In this document: in pieces, positions 6,359-27,404 of the stretch
How positions within the stretch are numbered: the stretch's first letter is position 1
Layout: each line of letters opens with the position of its first letter
Notes under the pieces: model-generated
What the model was told of the DNA's origin: nothing
The model's database searches: none
The model's input: the letters and a program-made list of their open reading frames with translations, nothing else
Position numbers and translations under genes: made by a program
NCBI RefSeq assembly: GCF_018129965.1
Contig: NZ_JAFCKW010000026.1
Location: forward strand, 1-64,000
Length of the DNA stretch: 64,000 nucleotides
DNA from: Bradyrhizobium diazoefficiens
GTDB taxonomy: Bacteria > Pseudomonadota > Alphaproteobacteria > Rhizobiales > Xanthobacteraceae
Reading direction: 5' to 3'

Positions 6359-6409
6359 GTTTCTCTCCAAATCGGCGGGAATTGTCCTGCCGTCGCCTCA
6401 CCCTCGGAC

Positions 6410-6526: not shown

Positions 6527-7717
6527 TCACAGCCCCAGCACCGCCTTGGCGATGATGTTGCGCTGGATCTCGTTGGAGCCGCCGTAGATCGAGACCTTGC
6601 GGTTGTTGAAGTAGCTCGGCGCGATCTGGGCGGTCCAGTCCATGGCTTCGTTGGAGCCGTCGTCGCCGTGCACGTCGTAGGGCGCGGCGAAGGGGCCGAT
6701 GACTTCCATCAGGAGCTCGGTGGTGGTCTGCTGGATCTCGGAGCCCTTGATCTTCAGCACCGACGAGGCCGGATTGGGCTTGCCCTTGCCGTGCTTGCCC
6801 TCGTCGGCGACGACGCGCAGCTGCGTCAGCTCGAGCGCCTTCAGCTCGATCTCGCAGGCCGCCAGCTTCTCGCGGAAGGCGGCGTCCTGGATGATCGGCT
6901 TGCCGGCGGATTCGACCTTGCCGGCGAGATCGCGGATGCGGCGCAACCGCTCCTTGGAGACGCCGACCCGGGCGATGCCGGTGCGTTCGTTGCCGAGCAG
7001 GAATTTGGCGTAATCCCAGCCCTTGTTCTCCTCGCCGATCAGGTTCTCGATGGGAACCTCGACGTTGTCGAAGAAGACCTCGTTGACCTCATGACCGCCG
7101 TCGATGGTCTGGATCGGGCGCACGGTGACGCCCTTCGACTTCATCGAGAACACGATGAAGGAGATGCCCATCTGCTTCTTGGCATTGGAATCGGTGCGGC
7201 AGAGGCAGAAGATCATGTCGGCGTGCTGGGCCAGCGTGGTCCAGGTCTTCTGGCCGTTGATGATCCACTTGTCGCCCTTCCGCTCGGCCTTGGTGCGGAG
7301 CGAGGCGAGGTCGGAGCCGGAGCCGGGCTCGGAGAAGCCCTGGCACCACCAATCATCGACATTGGCGATGCGCGGCAGGTACTGCTTCTTCTGCGCCTCG
7401 CTGCCGAAGGTATAGATGACCGGGCCGACCATGCTGACGCCGAAGGCGAGCGGCTGCGGCGCCGGATAGGCCTGCAGTTCCTCGTTGAAGATGTAGTGCT
7501 GCACGGCGCTCCAGCCGGTGCCGCCATACTCCTTCGGCCAATGCGTGACGCCCCAGCCCTTCTTGTTGAGGATGCGCCACCAGGTCACCATCTCGTCCTT
7601 CGAGAGATGACGGCCCTCGACCAGCTTGCGCCGCGTATCCGGCGGCACATTGTCGCGGAAGAATGAACGCACTTCCTCGCGAAACGCCTGCTCTTCTTTC
7701 GTGAATGCGAGATCCAT
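6527..7717 (-). CDS. pimC: Acyl-CoA dehydrogenase, pimeloyl-CoA dehydrogenase large-subunit type
   Basis: This 396-aa FAD-dependent acyl-CoA dehydrogenase starts at an ATG preceded by a strong AGGAGG, 6 nt upstream. The N-terminus reads MDLAFTKEEQAFREEVRSFF. The FAD-contact region WCQGFSEPGSGSDLASLRT and the C-terminal block IYGGSNEIQRNIIAKAVLGL are canonical. It should form a heteromer with the downstream 380-aa paralogue, as proposed for PimC/PimD, and oxidise pimeloyl- or other (di)acyl-CoAs. It sits only 25 bp after the acyl-CoA ligase stop, in the same transcription direction. The family call is firm; the substrate is inferred from context. Confidence 0.87.
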   Translation of the reverse strand: MDLAFTKEEQAFREEVRSFFRDNVPPDTRRKLVEGRHLSKDEMVTWWRILNKKGWGVTHWPKEYGGTGWSAVQHYIFNEELQAYPAPQPLAFGVSMVGPVIYTFGSEAQKKQYLPRIANVDDWWCQGFSEPGSGSDLASLRTKAERKGDKWIINGQKTWTTLAQHADMIFCLCRTDSNAKKQMGISFIVFSMKSKGVTVRPIQTIDGGHEVNEVFFDNVEVPIENLIGEENKGWDYAKFLLGNERTGIARVGVSKERLRRIRDLAGKVESAGKPIIQDAAFREKLAACEIELKALELTQLRVVADEGKHGKGKPNPASSVLKIKGSEIQQTTTELLMEVIGPFAAPYDVHGDDGSNEAMDWTAQIAPSYFNNRKVSIYGGSNEIQRNIIAKAVLGL

Positions 7718-7742
7718 CGGATCCTCCTGTGAGCTTTCTCGT

Positions 7743-9404: not shown

Positions 9405-9425
9405 TGCTTCCTTAAACCACACGGA

Positions 9426-9506
9426 CGTCGTTCCGGGGCGCCCGAAGGGCGAACCCGGAACCTCGAGATTCCGGGTTCGATGCTTACGCATCGCCCCGGA
9501 ATGACG
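9426..9506. repeat. Intergenic inverted repeat, 'CGTCGTTCCGGGGCG' family
   Basis: The arms CGTCGTTCCGGGGCG (9426-9440) and CGCCCCGGAATGACG (9492-9506) pair almost perfectly. Two inner hairpins lie between them, GCGCCCGAAGGGCG and AACCCGGAACCTCGAGATTCC. It fills the gap between the ligase and the bifunctional FadB-type gene, and its transcript could fold there. Confidence 0.8.
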
Positions 9507-9513
9507 CGAACCA

Positions 9514-11610
<2,097 letters not shown>

Positions 11611-11655
11611 GGTGTCCCTCCTTGGTGGGGATGTTACTTTTATTCGATTTCGCAG

Positions 11656-11674
11656 TGCGGAATTTAATTCCGCA
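11656..11674. promoter_or_regulatory. Candidate IclR operator, 19-bp perfect palindrome
   Basis: TGCGGAATTTAATTCCGCA is a perfect odd-length palindrome centred on 11665. It lies in the short spacer between the divergent pimF-like and iclR genes. IclR-family proteins bind short AT-centred palindromes and are usually autoregulated. This site could therefore serve both directions: the beta-oxidation operon, and the regulator with its transporter. Confidence 0.65.
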
Positions 11675-11741
11675 TCTTGACGGCAGGGTTATTTTGAAGC
11701 ACGCACGTTGTCAACGACTCCGCGCAAGAAGCAGATCAGGG

Positions 11742-12608
11742 ATGAAGCGTACAGGAAAGAAGACTGCGACAGATCGGAATTTCGTCGTGGCTCTTTCCCG
11801 CGGACTTGATGTATTGCGCGCATTCCACCCCAACGACGGCCTGCTCGGCAACCAGGAAATCGCAGCCCGCACCAATCTGCCGAAGCCGACCGTGTCACGG
11901 CTGACTTACACGTTGACCAAGCTTGGCTATCTGACACCGGTTCCCCGTTTCGAGAAGTATCAACTGGCCCCGGCCGCGATGGCGCTCGGTTATGCGGCGC
12001 TGGCCAATCTCGGTGTTCGGCATTTGTCCGAACCGTTCCGCGAGGAGCTGATGCGCGCGACGGGCGGCGCCGTCGCGATCGGCGGCCGCGACCGTCACAG
12101 CATGATCTATTTCGGGCAGAGCCGCGGCAGCGAGACGGTCGGCGTTCAACTGGACGTCGGAGCGCGCGTGCCGATCGCAACCAGCGCGATGGGCCGCGCT
12201 TATTTCTGGGCACTCGACGACGACAACCGCGCCGAAGTGTCGCGCGTCCTGCGCGAACATTACGGCAGTCGCTGGCCCAAGATGCGCGACGGCCTGGAAC
12301 GTTCCGGCGAGACCGTCGCGAAATACGGTTTTGCGATTTCCGTCGGCGACTGGCACGACGACATCGGCGCCGCCGGCGTCGCGCTCAGGCTCAACGACGG
12401 AACCGGACCTTACGCATTCAATTGCGGCGCACCCGCATTCCGCTTCACGGAAGAGCGTCTGATCAACGACATTGGACCGCGTCTGCTGGCGATGGTAAGG
12501 AACATCGAAGCGGCGCTCGGTGGACTGATGCCGCAATCCAAAAAAGACGTCAGCAAAAAGCTGAAATCAGGAGGAAAAGTTGCGCGTGTGGCCGAGGGGT
12601 TCAGATAG
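11742..12608 (+). CDS. IclR family transcriptional regulator
   Basis: This 288-aa DNA-binding regulator has an N-terminal winged helix-turn-helix (LGNQEIAARTNLPKPTVSRL at about residues 39-58) and a C-terminal IclR effector domain. The latter includes the RDRHSMIYFGQSRG and GARVPIATSAMGRAYF blocks, the usual small-molecule pocket region. The start is the ATG at 11742 with AGATCAGGG upstream; the frame is open further up, but that stretch crosses the promoter. It sits between the divergent beta-oxidation operon and the Liv transporter genes, with livG only 66 bp after its stop. It is the best candidate for a local regulator sensing a (di)carboxylic acid or its CoA ester. Confidence 0.92.
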   Translation: MKRTGKKTATDRNFVVALSRGLDVLRAFHPNDGLLGNQEIAARTNLPKPTVSRLTYTLTKLGYLTPVPRFEKYQLAPAAMALGYAALANLGVRHLSEPFREELMRATGGAVAIGGRDRHSMIYFGQSRGSETVGVQLDVGARVPIATSAMGRAYFWALDDDNRAEVSRVLREHYGSRWPKMRDGLERSGETVAKYGFAISVGDWHDDIGAAGVALRLNDGTGPYAFNCGAPAFRFTEERLINDIGPRLLAMVRNIEAALGGLMPQSKKDVSKKLKSGGKVARVAEGFR

Positions 12609-12674
12609 CCTGTGTCATCACCGGGAGCGGTCCGTATCGCCCCTTCGCCCATCGACAATCGTGGGCGAGACGAC

Positions 12675-14182
<1,508 letters not shown>

Positions 14183-14194
14183 GGAGCCGGCACG

Positions 14195-15073
14195 ATGGAG
14201 CTATTCACCAACCAAGTGCTGGCCGGCATCGCCACGGGCGCGATCTATGCCTGCATGGCGCTCGCCGTGGTCATGATCTACCAGGCCATCGACCATCTCA
14301 ACTTCGCGCAGGGCGAGATGGCGATGTTCTCGACCTTCATCTCCTGGCAGCTGATGCAATGGGGCGTCTCCTACTGGGCCGCCTTCGCGATCACGCTGGT
14401 CTTCTCCTTCATCGCCGGCATCGCGATCGAGCGCATCCTGTTCAAGCCGCTGACGAAAGCGCCGGTGCTGACCAATGTCGCCGGCTTCATCGCGCTGTTC
14501 GCGATCATCAACTCGTCGGCCGGCCTGATCTGGGACTTCACCATCAAGCAGTACCCGACCCCGTTCGGCTCTTCGCCGTTCCTCGGCAGCCAGCTGATCT
14601 CGACCCACCAGGCCGGCATGATCGGCGTCACGGTGATGCTGCTGGTGGCCCTCTACTTCTTCTTCCAGTACACCCGCATCGGCCTTGCGATGCGCGCGGC
14701 CGCGTCGGTGCCTGAATCGGCTCGCCTCGTCGGCATCAACACCTCCTGGATGATCGCGCTCGGCTGGGGCATGGCGACCGCGATCGGCGCGATCGCGGGC
14801 ATGCTGATCGCTCCGGTGGTGTTCCTCGAGCCCAACATGATGGGCGGCGTGCTGATCTACGGCTTTGCCGCCGCGGTGCTCGGCGGGCTGACCAGCCCAT
14901 TCGGCGCAGTGGTCGGCGGGTTCCTGGTCGGCATCTTCGAGAACCTCGCCGGCACCTACATCCCCGGCGTCGGCAACGAGCTGAAACTTCCGATCGCGCT
15001 CGCGCTGATCATTTCCGTCCTGGTCGTCAAACCCGCTGGCCTGTTCGGCCGGCACATCGTCAAGCGAGTTTGA
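14195..15073 (+). CDS. ABC transporter permease, LivH type
   Basis: This inner-membrane permease (292 aa) has about eight hydrophobic segments. The N-terminus LAGIATGAIYACMALAVVMIYQ and the later GAIAGMLIAPVVFLEPNMM region are characteristic of LivH-type subunits. The ATG at 14195 follows GAGGAG closely. It pairs with the LivM-type permease 2 bp downstream to form the translocation channel. Confidence 0.94.
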   Translation: MELFTNQVLAGIATGAIYACMALAVVMIYQAIDHLNFAQGEMAMFSTFISWQLMQWGVSYWAAFAITLVFSFIAGIAIERILFKPLTKAPVLTNVAGFIALFAIINSSAGLIWDFTIKQYPTPFGSSPFLGSQLISTHQAGMIGVTVMLLVALYFFFQYTRIGLAMRAAASVPESARLVGINTSWMIALGWGMATAIGAIAGMLIAPVVFLEPNMMGGVLIYGFAAAVLGGLTSPFGAVVGGFLVGIFENLAGTYIPGVGNELKLPIALALIISVLVVKPAGLFGRHIVKRV

Positions 15074-15075
15074 TC

Positions 15076-16095
15076 ATGAGCGCTGCAGAAGAAGTCGTTG
15101 CAGAAGGCCACCAGGCAGTCGCAGCCGTTCCGAAGCGAGGCATGACGCTGGGCACCGGCACCTCGCTGGTGGTGCTCGCCGCACTGCTCATCATGCCCAT
15201 CTTCGTCAAGAACTTCATCATCTTCCAGATGACGATGCTGCTGATCTACGGGCTCGCGGTGCTGGCGCTGAACATCCTCACCGGCGGCTCGGGCCAATTT
15301 TCGCTCGGCCAGAGCGCCTTCTACGCCGTCGGCGCCTATACGACCGCGGTGCTGATGGAGCACTTCAACGTCAACTACGCGCTGACACTGCCGATCGCAG
15401 GCGTCGTCTGCTTCGCCTTCGGCTTCCTGTTCGGGCAGCCGGCCCTGCGGCTCTCCGGCGTCTATCTCGCGCTGGCGACCTTCGCGCTCGCCACAGCCAT
15501 GCCGCAGCTCCTGAAGCTGAACTTCCTCGAGCATTGGACCGGCGGCGTGCAGGGTCTCGTCGTCACCAAGCCGGACGCGCCCTTCGGCCTGCCGATGTCG
15601 CAGGACATGTGGCTGTACTACTTCACGCTCGTCGTCGTGATCGCGATCTACATCTTCGCGGTGAACCTGCTTCGCTCCCGCTCGGGCCGCGCCTTCATGG
15701 CGATCCGCGACAACGAGATCGCCGCCTCCGCCATGGGCGTCGACGTCGCGCTGTACAAGACGCTGGCTTTCGGCGTGTCGGCCGCGATCACCGGCATCGC
15801 CGGCTCGCTCGGCGCCATCGCGGTGCAGTTCGTCGCGCCCGACAGCTACACCATCACGCTCGCGATCTCGCTGTTCCTCGGCATGGTCGTCGGCGGCGTG
15901 GGCTGGCTGCCCGGCTCGATCGTCGGCGCCGCCTTCATCATCTTCGTTCCGAACATCGCGGAGGGCATCTCCAAGGGCCTCTCCGGCGCCGTGTTCGGCG
16001 TGCTGCTGTTCCTCGTCATCTACCTCGTGCCGCATGGCGCAAGGCAAGTCGCGATCCTGGGCCAAAAACTCGCCGGTAAGCTCAGGAAGAACTGA
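15076..16095 (+). CDS. ABC transporter permease, LivM type
   Basis: This second permease (339 aa) starts at the ATG at 15076, two bases after the LivH stop. It has a 25-30 residue cytoplasmic N-terminus and then about nine membrane spans. The LivM hallmarks LTGGSGQFSLGQSAFYAVGAY and SRSGRAFMAIRDNEIAASAMG are visible; the latter is the cytoplasmic loop contacting the ATPases. It is followed after 28 bp by the first of four binding protein genes. Confidence 0.94.
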   Translation: MSAAEEVVAEGHQAVAAVPKRGMTLGTGTSLVVLAALLIMPIFVKNFIIFQMTMLLIYGLAVLALNILTGGSGQFSLGQSAFYAVGAYTTAVLMEHFNVNYALTLPIAGVVCFAFGFLFGQPALRLSGVYLALATFALATAMPQLLKLNFLEHWTGGVQGLVVTKPDAPFGLPMSQDMWLYYFTLVVVIAIYIFAVNLLRSRSGRAFMAIRDNEIAASAMGVDVALYKTLAFGVSAAITGIAGSLGAIAVQFVAPDSYTITLAISLFLGMVVGGVGWLPGSIVGAAFIIFVPNIAEGISKGLSGAVFGVLLFLVIYLVPHGARQVAILGQKLAGKLRKN

Positions 16096-16123
16096 CCCCC
16101 TCACCCACCAAGGAGACCTCGTT

Positions 16124-17353
16124 TTGTTTCTCGCAAGAATACTGCGAACCACCGCGCTCGTCACGGCGGTCGCAACCCTCACCTCCGGCGCAGCACTGGC
16201 CCAGAAGAAATACGACACCGGCGCGTCCGATACCGAGATCAAGATCGGCAACATCATGCCGTACAGCGGTCCGGCGTCGGCCTATGGCATCATCGGCAAG
16301 ACCGAAGAAGCCTATTTCAAGATGATCAACGACAAGGGCGGCATCAATGGCCGCAAGATCACCTACGTCACCTATGACGACGCCTATTCGCCGCCGAAGG
16401 CGGTCGAACAGGTGCGCAAGCTGGTCGAGAGCGACGAAGTGCTCGCGGTGTTCAACCCGCTCGGCACTCCCTCGAACAGCGCGATCCAGAAGTACCTGAA
16501 CGCCAAGAAGATCCCGCAGCTGTTCGTCGCCACCGGCGCCACCAAGTGGAACGATCCGAAGAACTTCCCCTGGACCATGGGCTGGCAGCCCTCCTACCAG
16601 AGCGAAGCGCAGATCTACGCGAAATGGCTGATGAAGGAGAAGCCCGACGCCAAGGTCGCGATCCTCTATCAGAACGACGATTTCGGCAAAGACTACCTCA
16701 AGGGCACCAAGGACGGCTTTGGAGCGAAAGCTGCGTCGAGCATCATTCTCGAAGAGAGCTATGAGGTCTCCGAGCCCTCGATCGACGGCCACATCGTCAA
16801 GATCAAGGCCGCCAATCCCGACGTGCTGCTGATCTACACGACGCCGAAGTTCGGCGCCCAGACGATCAAGAAGACCGCAGAGCTCGGCTGGAAGCCGCTC
16901 CAGATCATCACAAACGTGTCGGCCTCGGTCGGCAGCGTGATGAAGCCGGCGGGCTTCGAGGCCTCCCAGGGCGTGCTGTCGGCGGCCTATGCCAAGGACG
17001 GCGCCGACTCGCGCTGGGCTGACGATGCCGGCATGAAGAAGTGGACCGAGTTCCTCGACAAGTACATGCCCGGCGCCGACAAGACCGATTCCAGTGTCGT
17101 CTACGGCTACGGCGCCGCGCAGACGCTGGTCAAGGCACTGGAGCAGTGCGGCGACGATCTGACCCGCGCAAACCTGATGAAGCAGGCTGCCAGCCTCAAG
17201 GATTTCGCACCGGACACACTGCTGCCCGGCGTCAAGATCAACACCGGTCCGAACGACTTCGCCCCGATCAGCCAGCTCCAGATGCAGCGCTTCAAGGGCG
17301 AGAAATGGGAACAGTTCGGCGATATCCTGAGCGGCGATGTCGCTCCGGAATAG
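16124..17353 (+). CDS. ABC transporter substrate-binding protein, Liv type (tandem copy 1)
   Basis: This periplasmic binding protein (409 aa) has a signal peptide ending ALAQ. No ATG fits the signal sequence; TTG at 16124 is chosen because AAGGAGA ends 7 nt before it. The mature protein begins with the motif KKYDTGASDTEIKIGNIMPY, shared almost unchanged by the next three genes. It is the copy closest to the permease genes and probably co-transcribed with them. Relative to copies 3 and 4 it differs in the hinge region (LLIYTTPKFGAQTIKKTAE), so ligand preference may differ. A strong terminator follows. Confidence 0.93.
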   Translation: MFLARILRTTALVTAVATLTSGAALAQKKYDTGASDTEIKIGNIMPYSGPASAYGIIGKTEEAYFKMINDKGGINGRKITYVTYDDAYSPPKAVEQVRKLVESDEVLAVFNPLGTPSNSAIQKYLNAKKIPQLFVATGATKWNDPKNFPWTMGWQPSYQSEAQIYAKWLMKEKPDAKVAILYQNDDFGKDYLKGTKDGFGAKAASSIILEESYEVSEPSIDGHIVKIKAANPDVLLIYTTPKFGAQTIKKTAELGWKPLQIITNVSASVGSVMKPAGFEASQGVLSAAYAKDGADSRWADDAGMKKWTEFLDKYMPGADKTDSSVVYGYGAAQTLVKALEQCGDDLTRANLMKQAASLKDFAPDTLLPGVKINTGPNDFAPISQLQMQRFKGEKWEQFGDILSGDVAPE

Positions 17354-17381
17354 CGCGCTGACGTCATAGCCCAACCCTGCC

Positions 17382-17412
17382 AAGCCCCCGCGGTCAACCG
17401 CGGGGGCTTTTT
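17382..17412 (+). terminator. Rho-independent terminator after binding-protein copy 1
   Basis: A 12-bp stem with arms AAGCCCCCGCGG and CCGCGGGGGCTT, loop TCAA, is followed by a T-run. It should end the iclR-liv transcript after the first binding protein, which implies separate promoters for the later copies. Confidence 0.9.
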
Positions 17413-17475
17413 GTTGACGTCAGGGCTCATTCTTGCTCAATGCGGCGCACCAATCCATTCCGGGATGGGGGAGAG

Positions 17476-18702
17476 ATGACTTCCGTTCGATTTCAGGTTG
17501 CGGGCATTATGGCCGCACTCTCGTTGTGCACTGCGATGAGCAGCCCGGTGCTGGCGCAAAAGAAGTATGACAGCGGCGCGTCCGATACCGAGATCAAGAT
17601 CGGCAATATCATGCCCTATAGCGGACCGGCCTCCGCCTATGGTGCGATCGGCAAGGCCGAGGAGGCCTATTTCAACAAGGTCAATGCGGAGGGCGGCATC
17701 AACGGCCGCAAGATCAGGTTCATCTCCTATGACGACGGCTATTCGCCGCCGAAGACGGTGGAGCAGGCGCGCAAGCTGGTCGAGAGCGACGGGGTGCTGC
17801 TGATCTTCGGCTCGCTCGGCACCTCCACCAACAGCGCCATCCGGCCATACATGAACGACAGGAAGGTGCCGCAATTGTTCGTGGCGAGCGGCGCCTCGAA
17901 GTGGAACGATCCGAAGCAATATCCGTGGACCATGGGCTGGCAGCCCAGCTACGCCAGCGAGGCGCGCATCTACGCCAAATACATCATCAAGGAGAAGCCC
18001 GACGCGAAGATCGGCGTGCTCTATCAGAACGACGATTTCGGCAAGGACTATCTGAAGGGGCTGAAAGAGGGCCTCGGCGCCCGGACGTCGATGATCGCCA
18101 TGGAAGACGGCTACGACACCTCCGAGCCCGCGATCGACGAGCATATCGTGAAGCTGAAGGCCTCCGGCGCCGACGTCTTCATCAGCATCACCACGCCGAA
18201 ATTTGCCGCGCAGGCGATCAAGAAGGCGGCCGAGATCAACTGGCATCCTGTTCACATCATCTCCAACGTCTCGGCTTCGGTCGGGGGCGTCCTGGAGCCG
18301 GCGGGAATCGAGATCTCGCAGGGCATCCTGTCGGCGAGCTACGCCAAGGACGGTTCCGATCCGCAATGGAACGCGGACGACGGCATGAAGAAATTCTACA
18401 ACTTCGTCGCGCAATACGACCCCAAGTCCAACAAGCTCGATGCCGGCGTGGTGTTCGGCTATGGCGCGGCGCAAACCATGGTGCAGGTGCTGCAGATGTG
18501 CGGCGACGACCTCACCCGCGAGAACGTCATGAAGCAGGCCGCGTCCTTGAAGGATTTCGCGCCCGACACGCTGCTGCCCGGCATCCGCATCAACACCGCA
18601 GCCGACAATTTCGCCCCGATCGAGCAGCTGCAGATGATGCGCTTCAAGGGCAGGAAATGGGAGCTGTTCGGCGACATCATCTCGAGCGAGATCGGGCAGT
18701 AA
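17476..18702 (+). CDS. ABC transporter substrate-binding protein, Liv type (tandem copy 2)
   Basis: This 408-aa paralogue of copy 1 has a signal peptide ending VLAQ. The ATG at 17476 sits just after GGGGGAGAG. The conserved N-terminal motif, the NDDFGKDYLKG block and the terminal CGDDLTRENVMKQAASLKDF block are kept. It is the most divergent of the four in the ligand-cleft region: GSLGTSTNSAIRPYMNDRK replaces N(S/P)LGTPSNSAIQKY, and SGASKW replaces TGATKW. This suggests a different ligand range. It follows a terminator, so it probably has its own promoter; no clear terminator follows it. Confidence 0.93.
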   Translation: MTSVRFQVAGIMAALSLCTAMSSPVLAQKKYDSGASDTEIKIGNIMPYSGPASAYGAIGKAEEAYFNKVNAEGGINGRKIRFISYDDGYSPPKTVEQARKLVESDGVLLIFGSLGTSTNSAIRPYMNDRKVPQLFVASGASKWNDPKQYPWTMGWQPSYASEARIYAKYIIKEKPDAKIGVLYQNDDFGKDYLKGLKEGLGARTSMIAMEDGYDTSEPAIDEHIVKLKASGADVFISITTPKFAAQAIKKAAEINWHPVHIISNVSASVGGVLEPAGIEISQGILSASYAKDGSDPQWNADDGMKKFYNFVAQYDPKSNKLDAGVVFGYGAAQTMVQVLQMCGDDLTRENVMKQAASLKDFAPDTLLPGIRINTAADNFAPIEQLQMMRFKGRKWELFGDIISSEIGQ

Positions 18703-18955
18703 AGCTGAACAATTCAAGATAGTCGTTTCTAGACGCGCAATTTTGACACTGTTGGTGAGCGGCGCCCAGAATCTGACGCGCCGCAATATTCCGTACCGCC
18801 TGGAATGGATCGCGCATCCCTGCGACAGTTGTGCAGGGGCGTTTGCCTTGCTGGCGACGAGGGATGGGTATTGAATGCGACGCTGGAGCGGCGCGCAACG
18901 ATCGCTCCCCATCAAGAACAATCGACACATTCAAACCTGGTCCAGGGAGATCAAG

Positions 18956-20185
18956 ATGCCTGCAATGCATGTGCGGTTGGGGGCCTTCTCGGCTGCCCTC
19001 CTGCTGGCTGCCGCCCTGTCCACCGCGGCGTCAGCGCAGAAGCAATACGACACCGGCGCATCCGACACCGAAATCAAGATCGGCAATATCATGCCCTACA
19101 GCGGACCCGCCTCCGCCTACGGCGTGATCGGCAAGACCGAAGAGGCCTATTTCCGCAAGATCAACGCCGAAGGCGGCGTCAACGGCCGCAGGATCAACTA
19201 TGTCAGCTATGACGACGCTTACTCGCCGCCGAAAACAGTGGAGCAGGCGCGCAAGCTGGTCGAGAGTGACGAGGTACTGATCGTCTTCAACTCGCTCGGC
19301 ACACCGCCGAACTCCGCGATCCAGAGATATTTGAACCAGAAGAAGGTGCCGCAACTGTTCGTCGCCACCGGCGCCACCAAGTGGAACGACCCGCAGAACT
19401 TCCCCTGGACGATGGGCTGGCAGCCCAACTACCAGAGCGAAACCATCATCTACGCGAAGTACATTTTGAAGAACAAGCCGGATGCCAGGATTGGGGTGCT
19501 CTATCAGAACGACGATTACGGCAAGGACTATCTGAAGGGCTTCAAGGACGGGCTCGGCGCCAAGGCAGCCTCGCTGATCGTCATCGAGGACAGCTACGAG
19601 GTTTCCGAGCCGACCATCGACTCCCACATCGTGAAGCTGAAGGCCTCGGGTGCGGACGTCTTCATGAACATCACCACACCGAAATTCGCGGCGCAGGCGA
19701 TCAAGAAGAACGCCGAGCTCGGCTGGAAGCCGCTGCATTTCCTCAACAACGTGTCCGGCTCGATCGGCAGCGTGATCAAGCCGGCCGGCTTCGAGAACGC
19801 GCAGGAGATCATCTCGTCGCAATACTTCAAGGACCCGACCGACGCGCAATGGAAGAACGACACCGCGATGATCGCCTGGAACCAGTTCCTCGATAAATAT
19901 TATCCCGAGGCGAACCGCGCCGACGCTTCGGTGATGTACGCCTACATCGTCGCCCAGGGTCTCGTGCATGTGCTCAAGGCCTGCGGCGACGACCTGACGC
20001 GCGAGAACGTGATGAAGCAGGCCGCCAGCCTGAAGGACTACGTGCCGGCGGGCCTGTTGCCTGGCATCAAGGTCAACACCTCCGCCACCGATTTCGCGCC
20101 GCTCTCGCAGTTGCAGTTGATCCGCTTCAAGGGCGAGACCTGGGAGCGGTTTGGTGAAATTCTGAGCGCCGACGTCGGCGGCTGA
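18956..20185 (+). CDS. ABC transporter substrate-binding protein, Liv type (tandem copy 3)
   Basis: This is the third paralogue (409 aa), with a signal peptide ending ASAQ. The ATG at 18956 has AGGGAGA upstream; the frame is open to 18875 but that part lacks signal character. It is closest to copy 4, sharing DVFMNITTPKFAAQAIKKN and GWKPLHFLNNVS. The 253-bp gap before it contains a TTGACA at 18743 but no convincing -10 box. A hairpin terminator follows the gene, so it may form its own unit or read through from copy 2. Confidence 0.93.
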   Translation: MPAMHVRLGAFSAALLLAAALSTAASAQKQYDTGASDTEIKIGNIMPYSGPASAYGVIGKTEEAYFRKINAEGGVNGRRINYVSYDDAYSPPKTVEQARKLVESDEVLIVFNSLGTPPNSAIQRYLNQKKVPQLFVATGATKWNDPQNFPWTMGWQPNYQSETIIYAKYILKNKPDARIGVLYQNDDYGKDYLKGFKDGLGAKAASLIVIEDSYEVSEPTIDSHIVKLKASGADVFMNITTPKFAAQAIKKNAELGWKPLHFLNNVSGSIGSVIKPAGFENAQEIISSQYFKDPTDAQWKNDTAMIAWNQFLDKYYPEANRADASVMYAYIVAQGLVHVLKACGDDLTRENVMKQAASLKDYVPAGLLPGIKVNTSATDFAPLSQLQLIRFKGETWERFGEILSADVGG

Positions 20186-20211
20186 GTTCGGACAGTCAAC
20201 TAAAGACGCAT

Positions 20212-20239
20212 CCCCTGCGGCTTTGCCGCAGGGGCTTTT
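20212..20239 (+). terminator. Rho-independent terminator after binding-protein copy 3
   Basis: Arms CCCCTGCGGC (20212-20221) and GCCGCAGGGG (20225-20234) enclose a TTT loop, with CTTTTCC after the stem. Confidence 0.85.
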
Positions 20240-20339
20240 CCTTGAAGCTCCTGCGCAAATCGTATTGAATTGCGACTGCGTCGCCAAAAAACAATCAAGA
20301 CAAGAAGAGGAACGCACACACCAAGATAGGGAGATAGGA

Positions 20340-21569
20340 ATGTCTGCTGTCACCGGCAAACTTGCAGCCGCGTCATTGGCGCTTGCGCTCGTCGCGGCCT
20401 CGACCTCCATTGCATCGGCCCAGAAGAAATACGACACCGGCGCGACCGACACCGAGATCAAGATCGGCAACATCATGCCCTATAGCGGACCGGCCTCCGC
20501 CTACGGCATCATCGGGCGGACCGAAGCCGCCTACTTCAAGAAGATCAACGAAGAGGGCGGCATCAACGGCCGCAAGATCAACTTCATCAGCTACGACGAC
20601 GCCTACTCGCCGCCGAAGGCCGTGGAGCAGGCCCGCAAGCTGGTCGAGAGCGACGAGGTGCTGTTCGTCTTCAACTCGCTGGGGACGCCGTCGAACTCGG
20701 CGATCCAGAAATACATGAACGCGAAGAAGGTGCCGCAGCTGTTCGTCGCCACCGGCGCCACCAAGTGGAACGATCCGCAGAACTTCCCCTGGACCATGGG
20801 CTGGCAGCCCTCCTACCAGAGCGAGACGCAGATCTATGCGAAATGGCTGCTCAAGAACAAGCCGGACGCCAAGATCGCGGTGCTGTTCCAGAACGACGAT
20901 TACGGCAAGGACTATCTCAAGGGCCTGAAGGACGGCCTCGGGTCCAAGGCCGCCTCGATGATCGTCATGGAGGAAAGCTACGAGACCTCGGAGCCGACGA
21001 TCGACAACCACATCATCAAGCTGAAGGCCACCGGCGCCGACGTCTTCATGAACATCACGACGCCGAAATTTGCCGCCCAGGCCATCAAGAAGAACGGTGA
21101 GATCGGCTGGAAGCCGCTGCACTTCCTCAACAACGTCTCGGCCTCGGTCGGCAGCGTGATCAAGCCCGCGGGTTTCGATGCCGCCCAGGACGTGGTTTCG
21201 GCCGCGTATCTGAAGGACACCACCGACAAGCAATGGGACAACGACCCCGGCATGAAGGCTTACGTCGAGTTCATGACGAAGTATTTCCCGGAAGGCGACA
21301 AGACCGACAACGGCACCGTGGTCGGCTACAGCGTCGCCCAGACGCTGGTGCAGGTCCTGAAGCAGTGCGGCGACGATCTTACGCGCGCGAACGTCATGAA
21401 GCAGGCGGCCAGCCTGAAGGACTTCCGCGCCGAAATGCTGCTGCCCGGCATCAAGATCAATACCGGTCCGACCGACTTCGCGCCCATCAGCTCGCTCCAG
21501 CTCCAGCGCTTCAAGGGCGAGCGCTGGGAACTGTTCGGCGACGTGATCAGCGCCGACGCCGGCGGCTAG
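20340..21569 (+). CDS. ABC transporter substrate-binding protein, Liv type (tandem copy 4)
   Basis: This is the fourth paralogue (409 aa), with a signal peptide ending ASAQ and the ATG at 20340 after AGGGAGATAGG. It keeps the shared mature N-terminus (TDTEIKIGNIMPYSGPASAYG), the DDYGKDYLKGLKDGLGSKAAS block and the C-terminal FKGERWELFGDVISADAGG. Its closest relative is copy 3. The gene is isolated between terminators, so it can be expressed independently of the permeases. It presumably delivers ligand to the same LivHM-GF complex. Confidence 0.93.
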   Translation: MSAVTGKLAAASLALALVAASTSIASAQKKYDTGATDTEIKIGNIMPYSGPASAYGIIGRTEAAYFKKINEEGGINGRKINFISYDDAYSPPKAVEQARKLVESDEVLFVFNSLGTPSNSAIQKYMNAKKVPQLFVATGATKWNDPQNFPWTMGWQPSYQSETQIYAKWLLKNKPDAKIAVLFQNDDYGKDYLKGLKDGLGSKAASMIVMEESYETSEPTIDNHIIKLKATGADVFMNITTPKFAAQAIKKNGEIGWKPLHFLNNVSASVGSVIKPAGFDAAQDVVSAAYLKDTTDKQWDNDPGMKAYVEFMTKYFPEGDKTDNGTVVGYSVAQTLVQVLKQCGDDLTRANVMKQAASLKDFRAEMLLPGIKINTGPTDFAPISSLQLQRFKGERWELFGDVISADAGG

Positions 21570-21594
21570 AAGCCGCGACCCGCGTCACGACGAC

Positions 21595-21629
21595 AGCCCC
21601 CTGCGAAGCCTCGCAGGGGGCTTTCGTTT
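21595..21629 (+). terminator. Rho-independent terminator after binding-protein copy 4
   Basis: A 12-bp perfect stem with arms AGCCCCCTGCGA and TCGCAGGGGGCT and loop AGCC is followed by TTCGTTTG. Confidence 0.88.
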
Positions 21630-21761
21630 GCGATGCGATTATGATCGCGCGATTGCACAATCGAATGACGGCAAAGCCCGCTTACGCTTTGGCGCCCGAT
21701 GCGCTAGGCATGCGATTGGCGATTTCGTCGCCGCTGCTTTCGTCTGCTCAAGGCCCTCGTC

Positions 21762-23045
21762 ATGACCGACCGACGTCCCCTGCTCCGCGCGCTCTACGAC
21801 GCCGCCGTTGCCGCCGCCCATCCCAGCACGATCCTGGCGCCGCATCTGCGGCCCGCGCCGCGGGGACGCGTGATCTGCCTCGCCGCCGGCAAGGGCGCGG
21901 GCGCGATGGCCGCCGCCGCGGAACGGCATTATCTGGACACGCTCGGGCTCGCGCCGGAGCGCCTCGTCGGGATCGCCACCACCCGCCACGGCTACGGCGT
22001 GCCGACACGCCGCATCCGCGTGGTCGAGGCCGGCCATCCGGTGCCGGACGAGGCCGGGCTCAAGGGCGCCGCCGACACGCTCGCGCTGGCGGGCGAGGCC
22101 GGGCCGGACGATCTGCTGCTGGTGCTGCTCACCGGCGGCGGCTCGGCGAACTGGATCGCACCGGTGGACGGCATCAGCTTTGCGCAGAAGCAGGCGGTCA
22201 ACAAGGCGCTGCTGCGGTCCGGCGCGCCGATCGGCGAGATGAATATTGTGCGCAAGCACCTCTCCCGCATCAAGGGCGGGCGGCTGGCGCGCGCCGGCAA
22301 GAATGCCGCCGGGATCGTCACGCTCGCGATCTCCGACGTGCCGCATGACGATCCCTCCGCGATCGCTTCGGGTCCCACCGTCCCCGATCCGACGACGCTT
22401 GCCGACGCGCGCGCCATCGTCGCGAAATACAGGCTCGACATCGACGATGCCGTCCGCCGCGCACTGGAGGATCCCCGCAATGAAGGCGCCAAGCCGGGAG
22501 ATCCTGCCTTTGCGCATGCGACGTTCGAACTGATCGCGCGGCCGAGGCAATCGCTCGACGCCGCCGTGACGCTTGCCAGAAATGCCGGCTACGAGACCAT
22601 CGATCTCGGCGCCGATCTCGAAGGCGAAGCGCGCGAGGTCGCGGCCGATCACGCCAGGCTTGCGCTGCAGGCGCGCGCGCAAGGCAAGCGCGTCGCGATC
22701 CTCTCGGGCGGCGAGCTCACGGTCACCGTGCGCGGCAATGGCCGCGGCGGCCCGAACCAGGAATATGCGCTGGCGCTCGCCGCGCTGCTGAAGGACACGA
22801 GCGGCATCTCCGCGCTCGCCGGCGACACCGACGGCGCCGATGGCGGCGCCGGCCATCCCACCGACCCCGCCGGCGCACTGATCGACGCATCGACGTTTGC
22901 AAAGATGAAGGCGCTGGCGCTTCAGCCGCAGGCGTATCTCGACAACAACGACGCGACGACGTTCTTCGAGGCCACCGGGGACTTGCTGCAGCCGGGACCG
23001 ACGCTGACCAACGTAAACGATATCAGGGTGATCTTGGTGGATTGA
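21762..23045 (+). CDS. Glycerate 2-kinase type (DUF4147/MOFRL family; formerly hydroxypyruvate reductase TtuD)
   Basis: This 427-aa protein belongs to the GckA/TtuD group, which phosphorylates glycerate to 2-phosphoglycerate; older annotations call it hydroxypyruvate reductase. The N-terminal DUF4147 part contains CLAAGKGAGAMAAAAE and LLTGGGSANWIAPVDGISF. The C-terminal MOFRL part contains ILSGGELTVTVRGNGRGGPNQE and LAGDTDGADGGAGHPTDPAG. The ATG at 21762 matches the family N-terminus. It stands alone after the strong terminator of the binding-protein array, so its role in glycerate, tartrate or glyoxylate metabolism cannot be tied to neighbours. Confidence 0.9.
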   Translation: MTDRRPLLRALYDAAVAAAHPSTILAPHLRPAPRGRVICLAAGKGAGAMAAAAERHYLDTLGLAPERLVGIATTRHGYGVPTRRIRVVEAGHPVPDEAGLKGAADTLALAGEAGPDDLLLVLLTGGGSANWIAPVDGISFAQKQAVNKALLRSGAPIGEMNIVRKHLSRIKGGRLARAGKNAAGIVTLAISDVPHDDPSAIASGPTVPDPTTLADARAIVAKYRLDIDDAVRRALEDPRNEGAKPGDPAFAHATFELIARPRQSLDAAVTLARNAGYETIDLGADLEGEAREVAADHARLALQARAQGKRVAILSGGELTVTVRGNGRGGPNQEYALALAALLKDTSGISALAGDTDGADGGAGHPTDPAGALIDASTFAKMKALALQPQAYLDNNDATTFFEATGDLLQPGPTLTNVNDIRVILVD

Positions 23046-23062
23046 GGCCCAGACATTTTCTT

Positions 23063-23148
23063 CGTCAGGGCCGGGCTTGTCCCGGCCATCCACGATCTCC
23101 TCAGCGGCACTGAGAGCGTGGATGCCCGGGACAAGCCCGGGCATGACG
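23063..23148. repeat. Intergenic palindromic repeat, 'CCGGGCTTGTCCCGG' family (copy 1)
   Basis: CCGGGCTTGTCCCGGCCATCC near 23070 pairs with GGATGCCCGGGACAAGCCCGG near 23120-23140, so the whole element can fold into a long hairpin between convergent genes. A half-size copy lies at 29223-29253. Confidence 0.85.
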
Positions 23149-23168
23149 GCGAATAGTGATCGCTCGCC

Positions 23169-23690
23169 TCAAAACTCGTTGGCGATCTTCGAGAGCATCT
23201 GAAGCAGGGCCTCGCGGTTGGCTGGCTCGAGCAACTCGTTCAGCCGCGACTCGTGCTTGGTGGCGACGAGCTTCTTGGCGCGCGACAGCACGGCCTTGCC
23301 CTTGTCGGTCAGGACCAGGATGTGCGAGCGGCGATCGTTGGTGGAGCGGATCCGCGCGCAAAGGTCGCGGCTTTCCAGATTGTCGAGCAGGGCGACGAAG
23401 TTCGGCCTGAGGATGCCGAGCGTGGAGGCGACCTCGGTTTGATTACGTCCCGGATTCTTCTCGACCAGCAGCAGCACGGAGAACTGCGCGGGCGTGAGCT
23501 GGAGCGAGGCCATGCAGCGGATGAAGTTCTCGAACACCTTGAGCTGGGCGCGCTTGAGGACGTAACCGAGTTGTTCGGAGAGTTCGCCGAGCTGCAGGGC
23601 TTCGGCGTGCCCGTGGATCTGGGCATCGCCCACGTCCTTGCGGCCCTTGGCCGCGTCGCCGGACTTTTCAGCGGTTTTGGAAACGGTCAT
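23169..23690 (-). CDS. MarR family transcriptional regulator (CouR-like candidate)
   Basis: This 173-aa regulator has the MarR winged-helix core (FSVLLLVEKNPGRNQTEVAS, then LRPNFVALLDNLESRDLCARIRSTNDRRSHILVLT with the wing Arg-Arg). A hydrophilic extension of about 40 residues precedes it. It is divergent from a Liv-type transporter without binding protein, and the spacer contains two dyads. In R. palustris the MarR protein CouR represses p-coumarate genes and lies beside a Liv-type transporter. The p-coumarate-like locus 12 kb away makes a CouR role plausible but unproven. Confidence 0.88.
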   Translation of the reverse strand: MTVSKTAEKSGDAAKGRKDVGDAQIHGHAEALQLGELSEQLGYVLKRAQLKVFENFIRCMASLQLTPAQFSVLLLVEKNPGRNQTEVASTLGILRPNFVALLDNLESRDLCARIRSTNDRRSHILVLTDKGKAVLSRAKKLVATKHESRLNELLEPANREALLQMLSKIANEF

Positions 23691-23867: not shown

Positions 23868-24908
23868 TTGAACACCACCATCATGCTGTTCCTGGTACAG
23901 GACGGCATTACCAATGGCGCAATCTATGCGCTGCTCGGCCTGGCACTGGTGCTGGTGTTCGCCGTCACCCGCGTGATCCTGATTCCCCAGGGCGAATTCG
24001 TCACCTATGGCGCGCTGACCTATGCCTCGCTGGCGGCGGGCCAGATGCCCGGCACGGCCAAGCTCGCGCTGGCCCTCGGCATCGGCGCCTTCGCCTTCGA
24101 CATGGTCGTGGCCCGCAAGGCGCTGCATTTGCGTCTGGTCATGCGCAGCTTCCTCACCAACATCGTGCTGCCGGCCATCGTGCTGGCGCTGACCTCCTAT
24201 GTCGTCGCCCAGAAGCCGCCGGTCGCGATCTGCATCGCGCTGTCGCTGGTGATCGTCGCGATGATCGGGCTGTTTCTCTACCGGGTCGCGTTCCAGCCGC
24301 TGGCGCACACCTCCGTGCTGGTGCTGCTGATCGCATCGGTCGGCGTCCATCTCGCGCTGCAGGGAATGGGGCTGCTGTTCTTCGGCGCCGAAGGCCAACG
24401 CGGCCCGGCCGTGCTGTCCGGCTCCTTCACCGCGGGCGCGCTGCGCTTCACCGGACAGAGCATCACGGTCTACGGCATCACCATCGCCTTCATCGTCGGG
24501 CTCTGGCTGTTCTTCGGCCTGACGCTCTATGGCAAGGCGTTGCGCGCCACCGCCGTCAACCGGCTCGGCGCGCGGCTGGCCGGCATCCGCACCACGCTGT
24601 CCGGGCAGATCGCCTTCCTGCTGGCCTCCGTCATCGGCGCGCTGTCGGGCATCATGATCGTACCGATCACGACGCTCTATTACGACAGCGGCTTCCTGAT
24701 CGGCCTGAAGGGCTTCGTCGCGGCGATCATCGGCGGCCTCGTCAGCTACCCCCTCACTGCCATTGCGGCGCTGGTGGTCGGCATCGTCGAGGCGTTCTCG
24801 TCCTTCTACGCTTCCAACTACAAGGAGGTGATCGTTTTCATGCTCTTGATTCCCGTGCTGCTGCTGCGCTCGCTCGCAGCCCCCGCGGTCGAGGAAGAGA
24901 AGGACTGA
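23868..24908 (+). CDS. ABC transporter permease, LivH type (second system)
   Basis: This polytopic permease (346 aa) resembles LivH subunits (VQDGITNGAIYALLGLALVLVFAVTR at the N-terminus). TTG at 23868 is chosen because AGGGGGAG lies 9 nt upstream; an in-frame ATG at 23883 would remove five residues. It is somewhat longer than the first LivH, with extra hydrophobic segments around residues 55-135. It begins an operon with the fused LivM-LivG protein and LivF. No binding protein gene is present in this operon. Confidence 0.9.
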   Translation: MNTTIMLFLVQDGITNGAIYALLGLALVLVFAVTRVILIPQGEFVTYGALTYASLAAGQMPGTAKLALALGIGAFAFDMVVARKALHLRLVMRSFLTNIVLPAIVLALTSYVVAQKPPVAICIALSLVIVAMIGLFLYRVAFQPLAHTSVLVLLIASVGVHLALQGMGLLFFGAEGQRGPAVLSGSFTAGALRFTGQSITVYGITIAFIVGLWLFFGLTLYGKALRATAVNRLGARLAGIRTTLSGQIAFLLASVIGALSGIMIVPITTLYYDSGFLIGLKGFVAAIIGGLVSYPLTAIAALVVGIVEAFSSFYASNYKEVIVFMLLIPVLLLRSLAAPAVEEEKD

Positions 24909-24915
24909 GGCCCAG

Positions 24916-26685
24916 ATGCAAAGCCGGCTTCCCATCATCATCTTCGCAGCCGTCATGGCGGCGATCCCGTTCGTTCCCGGCATGCCGCCGTTCTGGATCG
25001 TGCTGCTCGACAATATCGGCCTTGCCGCGCTGGTCGCGATGGGCCTCGTGCTGCTGACCGGCGTCGGCGGCCTTACCTCGTTTGGCCAGGCGGCGTTCGT
25101 CGGCTTCGGCGCCTACACCACCGCGGTGCTGTCGACGACCTATGGCCTGTCGCCGTGGCTGACGCTGCCGCTGTCGCTCCTGGTGAGCGGATCGCTGGCG
25201 GTGCTGCTCGGCCTCGTGACGGTCCGTCTGTCCGGCCATTATCTGCCGCTCGGCACGCTCGCCTGGGGCCTCGGCCTGTTCTATTTGTTCAGCAAGCTGG
25301 AATTCCTCGGGAGGAACGACGGCATCTCCGCGATCCCGCCGCTGTCGATCGGCGCGTTCAAGATGCTCTCGCCGGGTTCGATCTATTACGCGATCTGGGT
25401 CGCCGTGATCGTCTCGGCCCTGCTCACGATGAACCTCCTGGATTCCCGCACCGGCCGCGCCATCCGCGCGCTGCGCCGCGGTCATGTCGCGGCCGAGGCA
25501 TTCGGGGTGCACACGCCGCGCGCAAAACTGCTGGTGTTCATCCACGCCGCCGTGCTCGCCGGCCTCTCCGGCTGGCTCTACGCACATCTTCAGCGCGCGG
25601 TGAACCCGACGCCGTTCGGCGCGCAGGCCGGCATCGAATATCTCTTCATCGCGGTGGTCGGCGGCGCCGGCTATGTCTGGGGCGGCGTGCTGGGCGCGGC
25701 GATCGTCGTGGTGCTGAAGGAGGTGCTGCAAAGCTACCTGCCGCTGCTCCTGCCCGGCTCCGGCCAGGTCGAGACCATCGTGTTCGGCATCATGCTCGTC
25801 GCGCTGCTCCAGCTCGCGCCGGGCGGCGTCTGGCCCTGGCTGATGTCGCTGCTGCCCCAGTCGGCCCGCGGCAGGACGCCGGACATCACGCTGAAGCTCG
25901 ATGACCGCGTCCGCTCGCCCGGCCAGTCCGGGGTCCTGCTCCAGGTCGAGAAGGCGCGCAAGCAATTCGGCGGCGTGATCGGCGTCAACAACGTCTCCTT
26001 CGACGTCCAGGCCCGCGAGATCGTCGCGCTGATCGGACCGAACGGGGCCGGCAAGAGCACGACGTTCAACCTGATCACCGGCGTGCTGTCGGCGACATCC
26101 GGATCGATCTCGGTGCTTGGCAAGCCGGTCGACAACGCGCCGCCGCAGGAAATCGTCAAGCTCGGCATCAGCAGGACCTTCCAGCACGTCAAACTCGTCC
26201 CTGACATGACCGTGCTGGAGAATGTCGCGATCGGCGCGCATCTGCGTGGGCATTCCGGGCCGATCGCCTCGATGCTGCGGCTCGACCGCGCCGACGAAGC
26301 CAAACTGCTCGCCGAAGCCGCGCGCCAGATCGAGAGGGTCGGCCTTGCCGACCAGATGCATCAGCTCGCGGGCAGCCTGTCGCTCGGCCAGCAGCGCATC
26401 GTCGAGATCGCGCGCGCGCTGTGCGTCGATCCGATGCTGCTGCTGCTCGACGAACCGGCCGCGGGCCTGCGCCACATGGAGAAGCAGCGCCTCGCAACGC
26501 TGCTGCGCGACTTGCGCGACGGCGGCATGAGCGTGCTGCTGGTCGAGCACGACATGGGCTTCGTGATGAACCTTGCCGACCGCATCGTCGTGCTCGATTT
26601 CGGCACCAAGATCGCGGAGGGCACGCCCGCCACGATCAAGACCAATCCCGAAGTGATCAAGGCCTATCTCGGAGTGGCGGCATGA
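24916..26685 (+). CDS. Fused LivM-type permease and LivG-type ATPase
   Basis: One 589-aa chain joins two usual subunits. Residues 1 to about 305 are a LivM-like permease with LTGVGGLTSFGQAAFVGFGAY and the cytoplasmic loop SRTGRAIRALRRGHVAAEAFG. After a linker near 305-340 comes a LivG-like ATPase with Walker A GPNGAGKST at 374-382, signature LSLGQQRIVEIARAL near 489 and Walker B LLLLDEPAAGL near 507. The gene is 7 bp after LivH and overlaps the LivF start by 4 bp. Such fusions occur in this transporter family; no frameshift is needed to explain it. Confidence 0.93.
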   Translation: MQSRLPIIIFAAVMAAIPFVPGMPPFWIVLLDNIGLAALVAMGLVLLTGVGGLTSFGQAAFVGFGAYTTAVLSTTYGLSPWLTLPLSLLVSGSLAVLLGLVTVRLSGHYLPLGTLAWGLGLFYLFSKLEFLGRNDGISAIPPLSIGAFKMLSPGSIYYAIWVAVIVSALLTMNLLDSRTGRAIRALRRGHVAAEAFGVHTPRAKLLVFIHAAVLAGLSGWLYAHLQRAVNPTPFGAQAGIEYLFIAVVGGAGYVWGGVLGAAIVVVLKEVLQSYLPLLLPGSGQVETIVFGIMLVALLQLAPGGVWPWLMSLLPQSARGRTPDITLKLDDRVRSPGQSGVLLQVEKARKQFGGVIGVNNVSFDVQAREIVALIGPNGAGKSTTFNLITGVLSATSGSISVLGKPVDNAPPQEIVKLGISRTFQHVKLVPDMTVLENVAIGAHLRGHSGPIASMLRLDRADEAKLLAEAARQIERVGLADQMHQLAGSLSLGQQRIVEIARALCVDPMLLLLDEPAAGLRHMEKQRLATLLRDLRDGGMSVLLVEHDMGFVMNLADRIVVLDFGTKIAEGTPATIKTNPEVIKAYLGVAA

Positions 26686-27404
26686 GCGCGCTGTTGTCCG
26701 TCGCGGATGCGCATGTCGCCTATGGCAAGGTCGAGGCGGTACGCTCGGTCTCGCTCGAGGTCGGGGCGAACCAGATCGTCACCATCGTCGGCGCCAATGG
26801 CGCCGGCAAGACCACCCTGCTGTCGGCCATCATAGGAATCCTGCCGCTGAAGGGCCGCGTGACGTTCGCCGGCCAGGACCTCGCCCGGCTCGATATCGAG
26901 GACCGCGTCGCGATGGGCCTCGGGCTCGTGCCGGAGCACCGCGAATTGTTCGTCACGATGAATGTGGAGGATAATCTCGAGCTCGGCGCCTTTCGCATCG
27001 AGAAGCGCAAGGCGAAAGCTTCGATGGAGCACGTCTACACGCTGTTTCCGCGCCTGAAGGAGCGCCGCAAGCAGCTTGCCGGCACGCTCTCCGGCGGCGA
27101 GCAACAGATGCTCGCCATGGGCCGCGCACTGATGGGCGCGCCGAAACTGCTGATGCTGGACGAGCCGAGCCTCGGGCTCGCGCCGATCATCGTCGCGGAC
27201 ATCTTCCGCATCGTCGGCGAGCTCCGCGCCGCCGGGGTCTCCGTGCTGCTGGTCGAGCAGAACGCACAGGCCGCGCTGAAGATCGCGGACCAGGCCTATG
27301 TGATGGAGCTCGGCGAATTCGTGCTGAGCGGCAAGGCCAGCGACGTCGCGGCGAACGAACGGGTGGCAGCGAGCTATCTTGGCTTCCAGCACGAAGGCGC
27401 GTGA
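26682..27404 (+). CDS. ABC transporter ATP-binding protein, LivF type (second system)
   Basis: This 240-aa ATPase has Walker A GANGAGKTT, signature LSGGEQQMLAMGRAL and Walker B LMLDEPSLGLAPIIV. The ATG at 26682 overlaps the stop of the fusion gene (ATGA). It completes a Liv-type importer with two permease domains and two ATPase domains on three polypeptides. The binding protein must be encoded elsewhere; the orphan at 39434-40585 is a candidate. Confidence 0.93.
   Translation: MSALLSVADAHVAYGKVEAVRSVSLEVGANQIVTIVGANGAGKTTLLSAIIGILPLKGRVTFAGQDLARLDIEDRVAMGLGLVPEHRELFVTMNVEDNLELGAFRIEKRKAKASMEHVYTLFPRLKERRKQLAGTLSGGEQQMLAMGRALMGAPKLLMLDEPSLGLAPIIVADIFRIVGELRAAGVSVLLVEQNAQAALKIADQAYVMELGEFVLSGKASDVAANERVAASYLGFQHEGA

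Follow-up and report, generated by a model that had tools for sequence, protein, structure and literature searches.

An old tandem array of four solute-binding proteins probably shares one Liv-type importer beside pim-type genes in Bradyrhizobium diazoefficiens

The first 64,000 nucleotides of contig NZ_JAFCKW010000026.1 of Bradyrhizobium diazoefficiens, called the window here, belong to a 7.13-Mb genome in 54 contigs (G000, window on contig C19). They encode four consecutive solute-binding proteins (SBPs) next to the genes of a Liv-type ATP-binding cassette (ABC) importer and a run of pim-type genes. A first-pass annotation made from the letters alone had described four tandem paralogous binding proteins of 408-409 aa. 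All four are real open reading frames (ORFs), and each scores above the PF13458 threshold (185-208 bits against 31.7; E 4e-54 to 5e-61). RPA names refer to Rhodopseudomonas palustris.

16124-17353, plus strand: SBP copy 1, 409 aa, TTG start; probably the RPA3724 orthologue type
17476-18702, plus strand: SBP copy 2, 408 aa, the most divergent copy
18956-20185, plus strand: SBP copy 3, 409 aa; patchy presence across the genus
20340-21569, plus strand: SBP copy 4, 409 aa; probably the RPA3725 orthologue type; structure model with a predicted local distance difference test (pLDDT) score of 90.5

Each copy starts with a hydrophobic leader that ends, by eye, directly before Q-K-K/Q-Y-D, and the leader of copy 2 has one Cys; the four SBPs are probably periplasmic. 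Amino-acid identity is 65% between copies 1 and 2, 68% between 1 and 3, 71% between 1 and 4, 65% between 2 and 3, 67% between 2 and 4, and 75% between 3 and 4. These values bear out the first-pass statement that copy 2 diverges most and that copies 3 and 4 are closest, and the SGASKW and GTSTNSAIRPY changes it singled out in copy 2 are both real. The longest DNA run common to two copies is 46 nt (copies 1 and 4, around the NFPWTMGWQPSYQS block) and codon identity at residues common to copies is 0.65-0.75; on these figures, taken without a computed background expectation, gene conversion that homogenizes the copies is a weak candidate.

The array copies are old and separately inherited, not freshly duplicated. 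We built a quick tree of 101 rows and a careful tree of 64 rows with bootstrap and Shimodaira-Hasegawa-like approximate likelihood ratio test (SH-aLRT) support, and in both, every copy groups with same-position genes from other species. Support in the careful tree (bootstrap/SH-aLRT) is 98/99 for the copy 3 clade and 100/100 for a narrow copy 2 clade, and Rhodopseudomonas is absent from the rows of both these clades in the trees. For the clades of copies 1 and 4, Rhodopseudomonas included, it is 99/92 and 99/99. Forcing the four window copies into one clade costs 663 log-likelihood units (approximately unbiased [AU] test, p=3e-44). Moreover, the best same-position matches in the tree rows of other species are 89-94% identical, compared with 65-75% among the window's own copies. 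The copies probably arose in tandem long ago, in a common ancestor, which is the simplest reading. Copy 3 of the window is placed next to rows that include B. jicamae, not with B. nanningense and B. manausense, the tree neighbors of the window's other copies. Grouping it with these two is disfavored at AU p=0.039, the group having been chosen after the tree was seen; this is a hint, not a firm one, that copy 3 was exchanged between lineages.

The array is bordered on its left by an IclR-livGFHM cassette, beyond which the pim-type genes run on the opposite strand, and on its right by a DUF4147/MOFRL gene, here called gckA. The pim names below were assigned from position and domain, not from comparison with the R. 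palustris genes.

4295-5068, minus strand: short-chain dehydrogenase (SDR)
5216-6370, minus strand: pimD-like acyl-CoA dehydrogenase
6527-7720, minus strand: pimC-like acyl-CoA dehydrogenase, start uncertain
7743-9491, minus strand: pimA-like acyl-CoA ligase (AMP-binding)
9514-11610, minus strand: pimF-like hydratase/3-hydroxyacyl-CoA dehydrogenase
11622-12608, plus strand: IclR-family regulator
12678-13472, plus strand: livG ATPase, start codon uncertain
13469-14182, plus strand: livF ATPase
14195-15073, plus strand: livH permease
15070-16095, plus strand: livM permease
21762-23045, plus strand: DUF4147/MOFRL protein, right border of the array
23169-23690, minus strand: MarR-family regulator

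This arrangement recurs in related genomes. Among 18 stretches from family and genus genomes, some of which end early, livHM matches adjoin SBPs in 16, and pimF-like and IclR genes lie beside the cassette in 13; the number of SBPs per stretch ranges from 1 to 5. One stretch, L139 (G084:C3:50000-69000), carries five family SBPs between a gckA-like gene and sequence without matching livHM. In this stretch, array and transporter are thus separated.

R. palustris has a counterpart of this locus in its pim-linked cluster RPA3723-3725, and the tandem array repeats a cluster type that has already been described in that species. In strain CGA009, RPA3723-3725 adjoin ABC transporter genes and pimFABCDE, according to the passages of PMC3223731 that deal with them. 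Likewise, tandem Liv-type SBPs in the window stand beside IclR-livGFHM and pim-type genes. The same passages give RPA3725 as 71% identical to RPA3724 and 60% to RPA3723, and report a screen in which fatty and dicarboxylic acids gave shifts with RPA3723 and RPA3724, the two profiles being different; over the whole screen, fatty and/or dicarboxylic acids gave a shift with seventeen SBPs (PMC3223731). We typed the window copies through R. palustris XCP, not CGA009 itself. XCP copy 3 is 72% identical to its copy 2 and 56% to its copy 1, which is near the published values. XCP copy 2 is 79% identical to window copy 1, and XCP copy 3 is 80% identical to window copy 4. Because of this identity pattern, copy 1 is probably of the RPA3724 type and copy 4 of the RPA3725 type. 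Orthology is found for some copies in the trees as well, where the copy 1 and copy 4 clades hold Rhodopseudomonas rows. The two clusters are not the same, however. R. palustris has three copies, the first a diverged type of Rhodopseudomonas rows, whereas there are four copies here, with copies 2 and 3 in clades that lack a Rhodopseudomonas row, and a pimB-like thiolase is absent here.

How variable is the array? We picked the 80 nearest named loci by high similarity to copy 4, which biases the sample; nearly all are from Bradyrhizobium, with a few Rhodopseudomonas and oddly labeled records. The interval from livM to gckA is in full view in 65 of these loci, and in the other 15 it is not. Two of the 65 arrays have two SBP copies, 31 have three, 25 have four, and 7 have five. 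A copy 3-type gene is missing in 34 of the 65, and 27 of these 34 were typed as copy 1-copy 2-copy 4. In all 27, a spacer like that between copies 3 and 4 sits between copies 2 and 4. One of them, L097, has also kept the first part of the copy 2-copy 3 spacer, a remnant that would fit deletion of copy 3, while in the other 26 the spacer fits copy 3 loss and later gain alike. In L110 and L113, copy 1 is in pieces, which suggests pseudogenes or assembly errors.

The first-pass annotation placed strong hairpin terminators at the ends of copies 1, 3, and 4, and all three were recovered. A promoter-like match between copies 2 and 3 is listed with them.

17382-17409, plus strand: hairpin-plus-T terminator 3' of copy 1
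18743-18772, plus strand: weakly supported sigma-70-like promoter match (10 of 12) in the copy 2-copy 3 spacer
20212-20234, plus strand: hairpin-plus-T terminator 3' of copy 3
21595-21622, plus strand: hairpin-plus-T terminator 3' of copy 4

Positions 12000-23300 contain 21 terminator-like sites, compared with 8.3 expected from shuffles. We also ran a stricter hairpin-then-T scan on the window and 65 related loci, taking the expectation from single-base shuffles. Hairpins were present in 35 of 48 copy 1-copy 2 spacers, 26 of 32 copy 3-copy 4 spacers, and 34 of 53 spacers after copy 4, where shuffles predict at most 0.2. The same scan found a hairpin in none of the 21 copy 2-copy 3 spacers. When copy 2 is of a diverged type (<75% identity), 6 of 10 copy 2-copy 3 spacers have one. 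The copy 2-copy 3 spacer of the window has only a weaker hairpin of 8 pairs (18817-18839) and no terminator as strong as the other three. Given this conserved pattern, liv-copy 1, copy 2(-copy 3), and copy 4 are plausible as transcription units. No known RNA family reached its gathering threshold in the window.

The model of copy 4, built from a 31-row alignment, predicts a type-I periplasmic binding fold for this copy. Its best PDB matches are 4kv7, 3lop, and 3lkb, followed in fourth place by 4n03, the fatty-acid ABC SBP of Thermomonospora curvata, an organism of another phylum. Copy 4 and 4n03 have the same fold (template-modeling [TM] scores 0.77/0.81), but only 21% identity. We aligned the copies with the leucine-binding protein (LBP) of E. 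coli, among whose contacts Glu226 is the acid residue for the amino group. LBP Ser79 corresponds to Thr116, and Thr102 to Thr141 (Ser in copy 2). At the Glu226 position, all four copies have Val (Val266 in copy 4 numbering), a residue that speaks against amino acids as ligands and would fit acids without an amino group. An amino-acid SBP of the LivK/LivJ kind is disfavored by this Val and by scores of 54-65 bits against the NCBIfam PRK15404 cut-off of 477. We also considered an SBP of the tripartite tricarboxylate transporter (TTT; TctC/Bug) family, but there was no TctC-type match; at E<=0.001, the only matches were PF13458, PF01094, and PF13433.

The first-pass annotation also claimed that the copies differ around the ligand cleft, and this holds in part. 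We called a position clade-fixed if it was conserved at >=85% within each of the four clades (63, 48, 32, and 66 sequences) and differed between clades. Of 40 such positions, 16 lie within +/-4 residues of the cleft compared with 7.6 expected, about a twofold enrichment (P=0.0009), where the cleft is a contact list carried over by a distant alignment, and the list, the 8 of 15 mapped contacts, and the widths are our own choice. For half-widths of 2 to 6 residues, P is 0.0159, 0.0074, 0.0009, 0.0035, and 0.0012. General variability is not higher at the cleft (0.165, compared with 0.178 elsewhere).

Only one permease/ATPase set was thought to be present, but the window has a second one, which starts 2.3 kb downstream of copy 4.

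23868-24908, plus strand: livH2 permease
24916-26685, plus strand: livM2-livG2 fusion, permease and ATPase
26676-27404, plus strand: livF2 ATPase, start uncertain
39434-40585, plus strand: likely SBP of the second Liv set

All three genes of this second set (Liv2) are seen in the flank of 50 of 68 loci, and in the other 18 not all three are. The gene at 39434-40585, 12 kb from the set in the window, is likely the SBP of Liv2. Its relatives (82-90% identical) are on the minus strand of 17 loci, and in the 15 of these for which the place was listed, they lie downstream of livF2 on the opposite strand. Of 60 genus genomes, 57 have a single copy of the gene, 2 have two copies, and 1 has none. Since a likely SBP of its own was found at 39.4 kb, the idea of Liv2 as an SBP-less partner was rejected.

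From the gene content, synteny, clades, terminators, modeled fold of copy 4, and family expansion (described below), we propose, with a probability of roughly 70%, that an old SBP array shares one Liv importer (IclR-livGFHM) that feeds pim-type beta-oxidation, and that the array is divided into separate transcription units. A mostly vertically kept, slowly changing set of SBPs would serve a single Liv-type ABC importer, the substrates of which would be medium- and long-chain dicarboxylic and fatty acids. Each periplasmic Venus-flytrap SBP would offer its own slice of this acid range to the common LivHM. The adjacent PimA-like ligase would then activate the imported acids, and the pim-type beta-oxidation genes would degrade them. 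Terminators that split the array into liv-copy 1, copy 2(-copy 3), and copy 4 would make the mix of SBPs adjustable. The proposed ligands come by analogy from the R. palustris orthologue types, and we infer both docking to the adjacent LivHM and separate regulation. This proposal retains part of the first-pass interpretation, namely the paralogous SBPs beside a Liv cassette and pim-type genes, and terminators that fit separate units, but not its local duplication or its single transporter set.

Several observations weigh against our proposal. The window lacks a pimB-like thiolase in its pim run, and with no gap at the pimA/pimC junction (7720-7743), where pimB would lie in the order pimFABCDE, the complete operon is not present. 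A thiolase-like ORF does lie between the pimA- and pimC-like genes of L158, and its closest match in the window's own genome is 61% identical and on another contig. Two of the 18 family and genus stretches, L139 with five SBPs and L147 with one, have no matching livHM. Sigma-70-like promoters are at chance level (2 compared with 1.7 expected), and separate units therefore rest on the terminators. The unremarkable overall variability of the cleft and our hand in defining it count on the same side. Finally, in the account of the R. palustris screen, RPA3725 bound no ligand, and lipid binding in the assay was possibly non-specific (PMC3223731). Given the null result for RPA3725, not every copy need be a dicarboxylate or fatty-acid SBP.

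Could the array be explained in other ways? The tandem layout, equal length, conserved ends, and similar terminator hairpins are what recent tandem duplication in this lineage, widening the ligand range, would leave behind. We consider this very improbable, because same-position genes elsewhere match far better than the window copies match each other, a single clade is rejected by the AU test, and no identical DNA longer than 46 nt joins any two copies; the first-pass idea of local duplication falls with it, the four copies being placed in separate old clades. Alternatively, the copies may be redundant, maintained for SBP dosage or through neutral birth and death without ligand specialization. 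The frequent absence of copy 3, the deletion-like footprint in L097, the fragmented copy 1 in L110 and L113, and the lack of an overall variability excess at the cleft would all suit redundancy. It is nevertheless unlikely, given that clade-fixed differences are enriched near the cleft, that the copy 1 and copy 4 types have long been retained, and that RPA3723 and RPA3724 are reported to differ in binding profile (PMC3223731).

It is also conceivable that some of the four SBPs serve livH2-livMG2-livF2 instead of, or besides, livHMGF, since Liv2 is so close to copy 4 and has no SBP gene as an immediate neighbor in the window. The likely Liv2 SBP, present once in nearly every genus genome and downstream of livF2 in 15 of 68 loci, makes such a partnership improbable. 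Quite improbable, too, is that one or more copies act as ligand reporters in sensing rather than in transport. The failure of RPA3725, the copy 4 type, to bind anything tested (PMC3223731) would agree with sensing, and a role of this kind is discussed for expanded TTT SBPs in the relevant part of PMC5994714. However, the Pfam-scanned neighbors in the window include no sensor kinase or chemoreceptor, and the two regulators beside the array are of the IclR and MarR types.

The array SBPs belong to a family that is strongly expanded in the genus. We counted members in 60 genus genomes at an E-value cut-off of 1e-100, scoring up to 30 candidates in each, so that some counts are "at least" values. 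The median is 14 members per genome (range 0-30), whereas the Liv2 SBP is present at 1 per genome. A pim-type LivH (>=85% identity) is found once in 51 of the 60 genomes, more than once in 7, and in 2 not at all, giving a median SBP:LivH ratio of about 13 to 1. The window's genome has 16 members at the 1e-100 cut-off and 15 at 1e-120; these 15 are the 4 array genes and 11 others. For ten of these 11, the nearest PF02653 permease is >8 kb away, measured between starts, compared with 19 of the 43 other PF13458 genes of the genome (Fisher P=0.007). The remaining gene (C12:83.9 kb) has a second livGFHM cassette (82/86/85/76% identical) at a distance of 7.5 kb. The 11 genes fall into nine stretches. 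Among the 20 neighbors scanned, an acyl-CoA ligase, acyl-CoA dehydrogenase, enoyl-CoA hydratase, or CoA-transferase occurs in six of these stretches and not in the other three. Our search of titles and abstract openings in the open-licence literature found no description of this expansion in Bradyrhizobium.

The orphan places and acyl-CoA neighbors suggest a network with a shared core, in which about 14 related SBPs serve the single pim-type LivHMGF and the array is its hub. On this reading, every catabolic cluster would come with a receptor of its own and rely on the shared pump. We hold this only tentatively, at somewhat less than even odds. In G040, 2 family SBPs occur without LivH, the neighborhoods come from one genome without a control from random genes, and E-value cut-offs cannot show a common docking surface, all of which count against it; G047 has neither a family SBP nor LivH. 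There are precedents for parts of such a network. In R. leguminosarum, BraC and the orphan BraC3 use one Liv/HAAT membrane complex, although that system handles amino acids and the passages on it describe no tandem SBP array (PMC2978685). The TTT SBPs of Bordetella and Rhodoplanes similarly combine lineage-specific expansion, few membrane components, orphans, and tandem arrays, and Bradyrhizobium icense has 43 TTT SBPs, as set out in the corresponding sections of PMC5994714. TTT is a different transporter family, however, and its SBPs number up to 434 (PMC5994714), compared with about 14 PF13458 SBPs per genome here.

Other loci carry related units. A second pim-type livGFHM cassette and two SBPs of the orphan type are found in L157 (1765-5200) and L131 (G000:C12:70-106 kb), where GC is lower (minimum 0.51 in L157, mean 0.53 in L131) and acyl-CoA dehydrogenase-like genes are also present. 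In L161 (7578-11431) and L165 (7167-11022), additional livMHFG cassettes are each accompanied by a single array-type SBP (70-72% identical to copy 4) and lie next to further acyl-CoA genes, which looks like duplication of the entire unit. Within the window, another PF13458 SBP (57318-58331, plus strand) is among 13 own-genome genes scoring 338-375 bits against this profile, 11 of which have no permease within 8 kb; these 13 are perhaps a second expanded family of orphan SBPs.

What deserves follow-up in this work is that SBPs outnumber LivH by roughly 13 to 1. If sharing is what lies behind the expansion, ABC (Liv) transporters would have a counterpart to the receptor expansions of TTT. Dicarboxylate and fatty-acid uptake in a major soil genus would then be open to dissection by deletion of a single permease, and the docking partners of the orphan SBPs would become a directly testable question.

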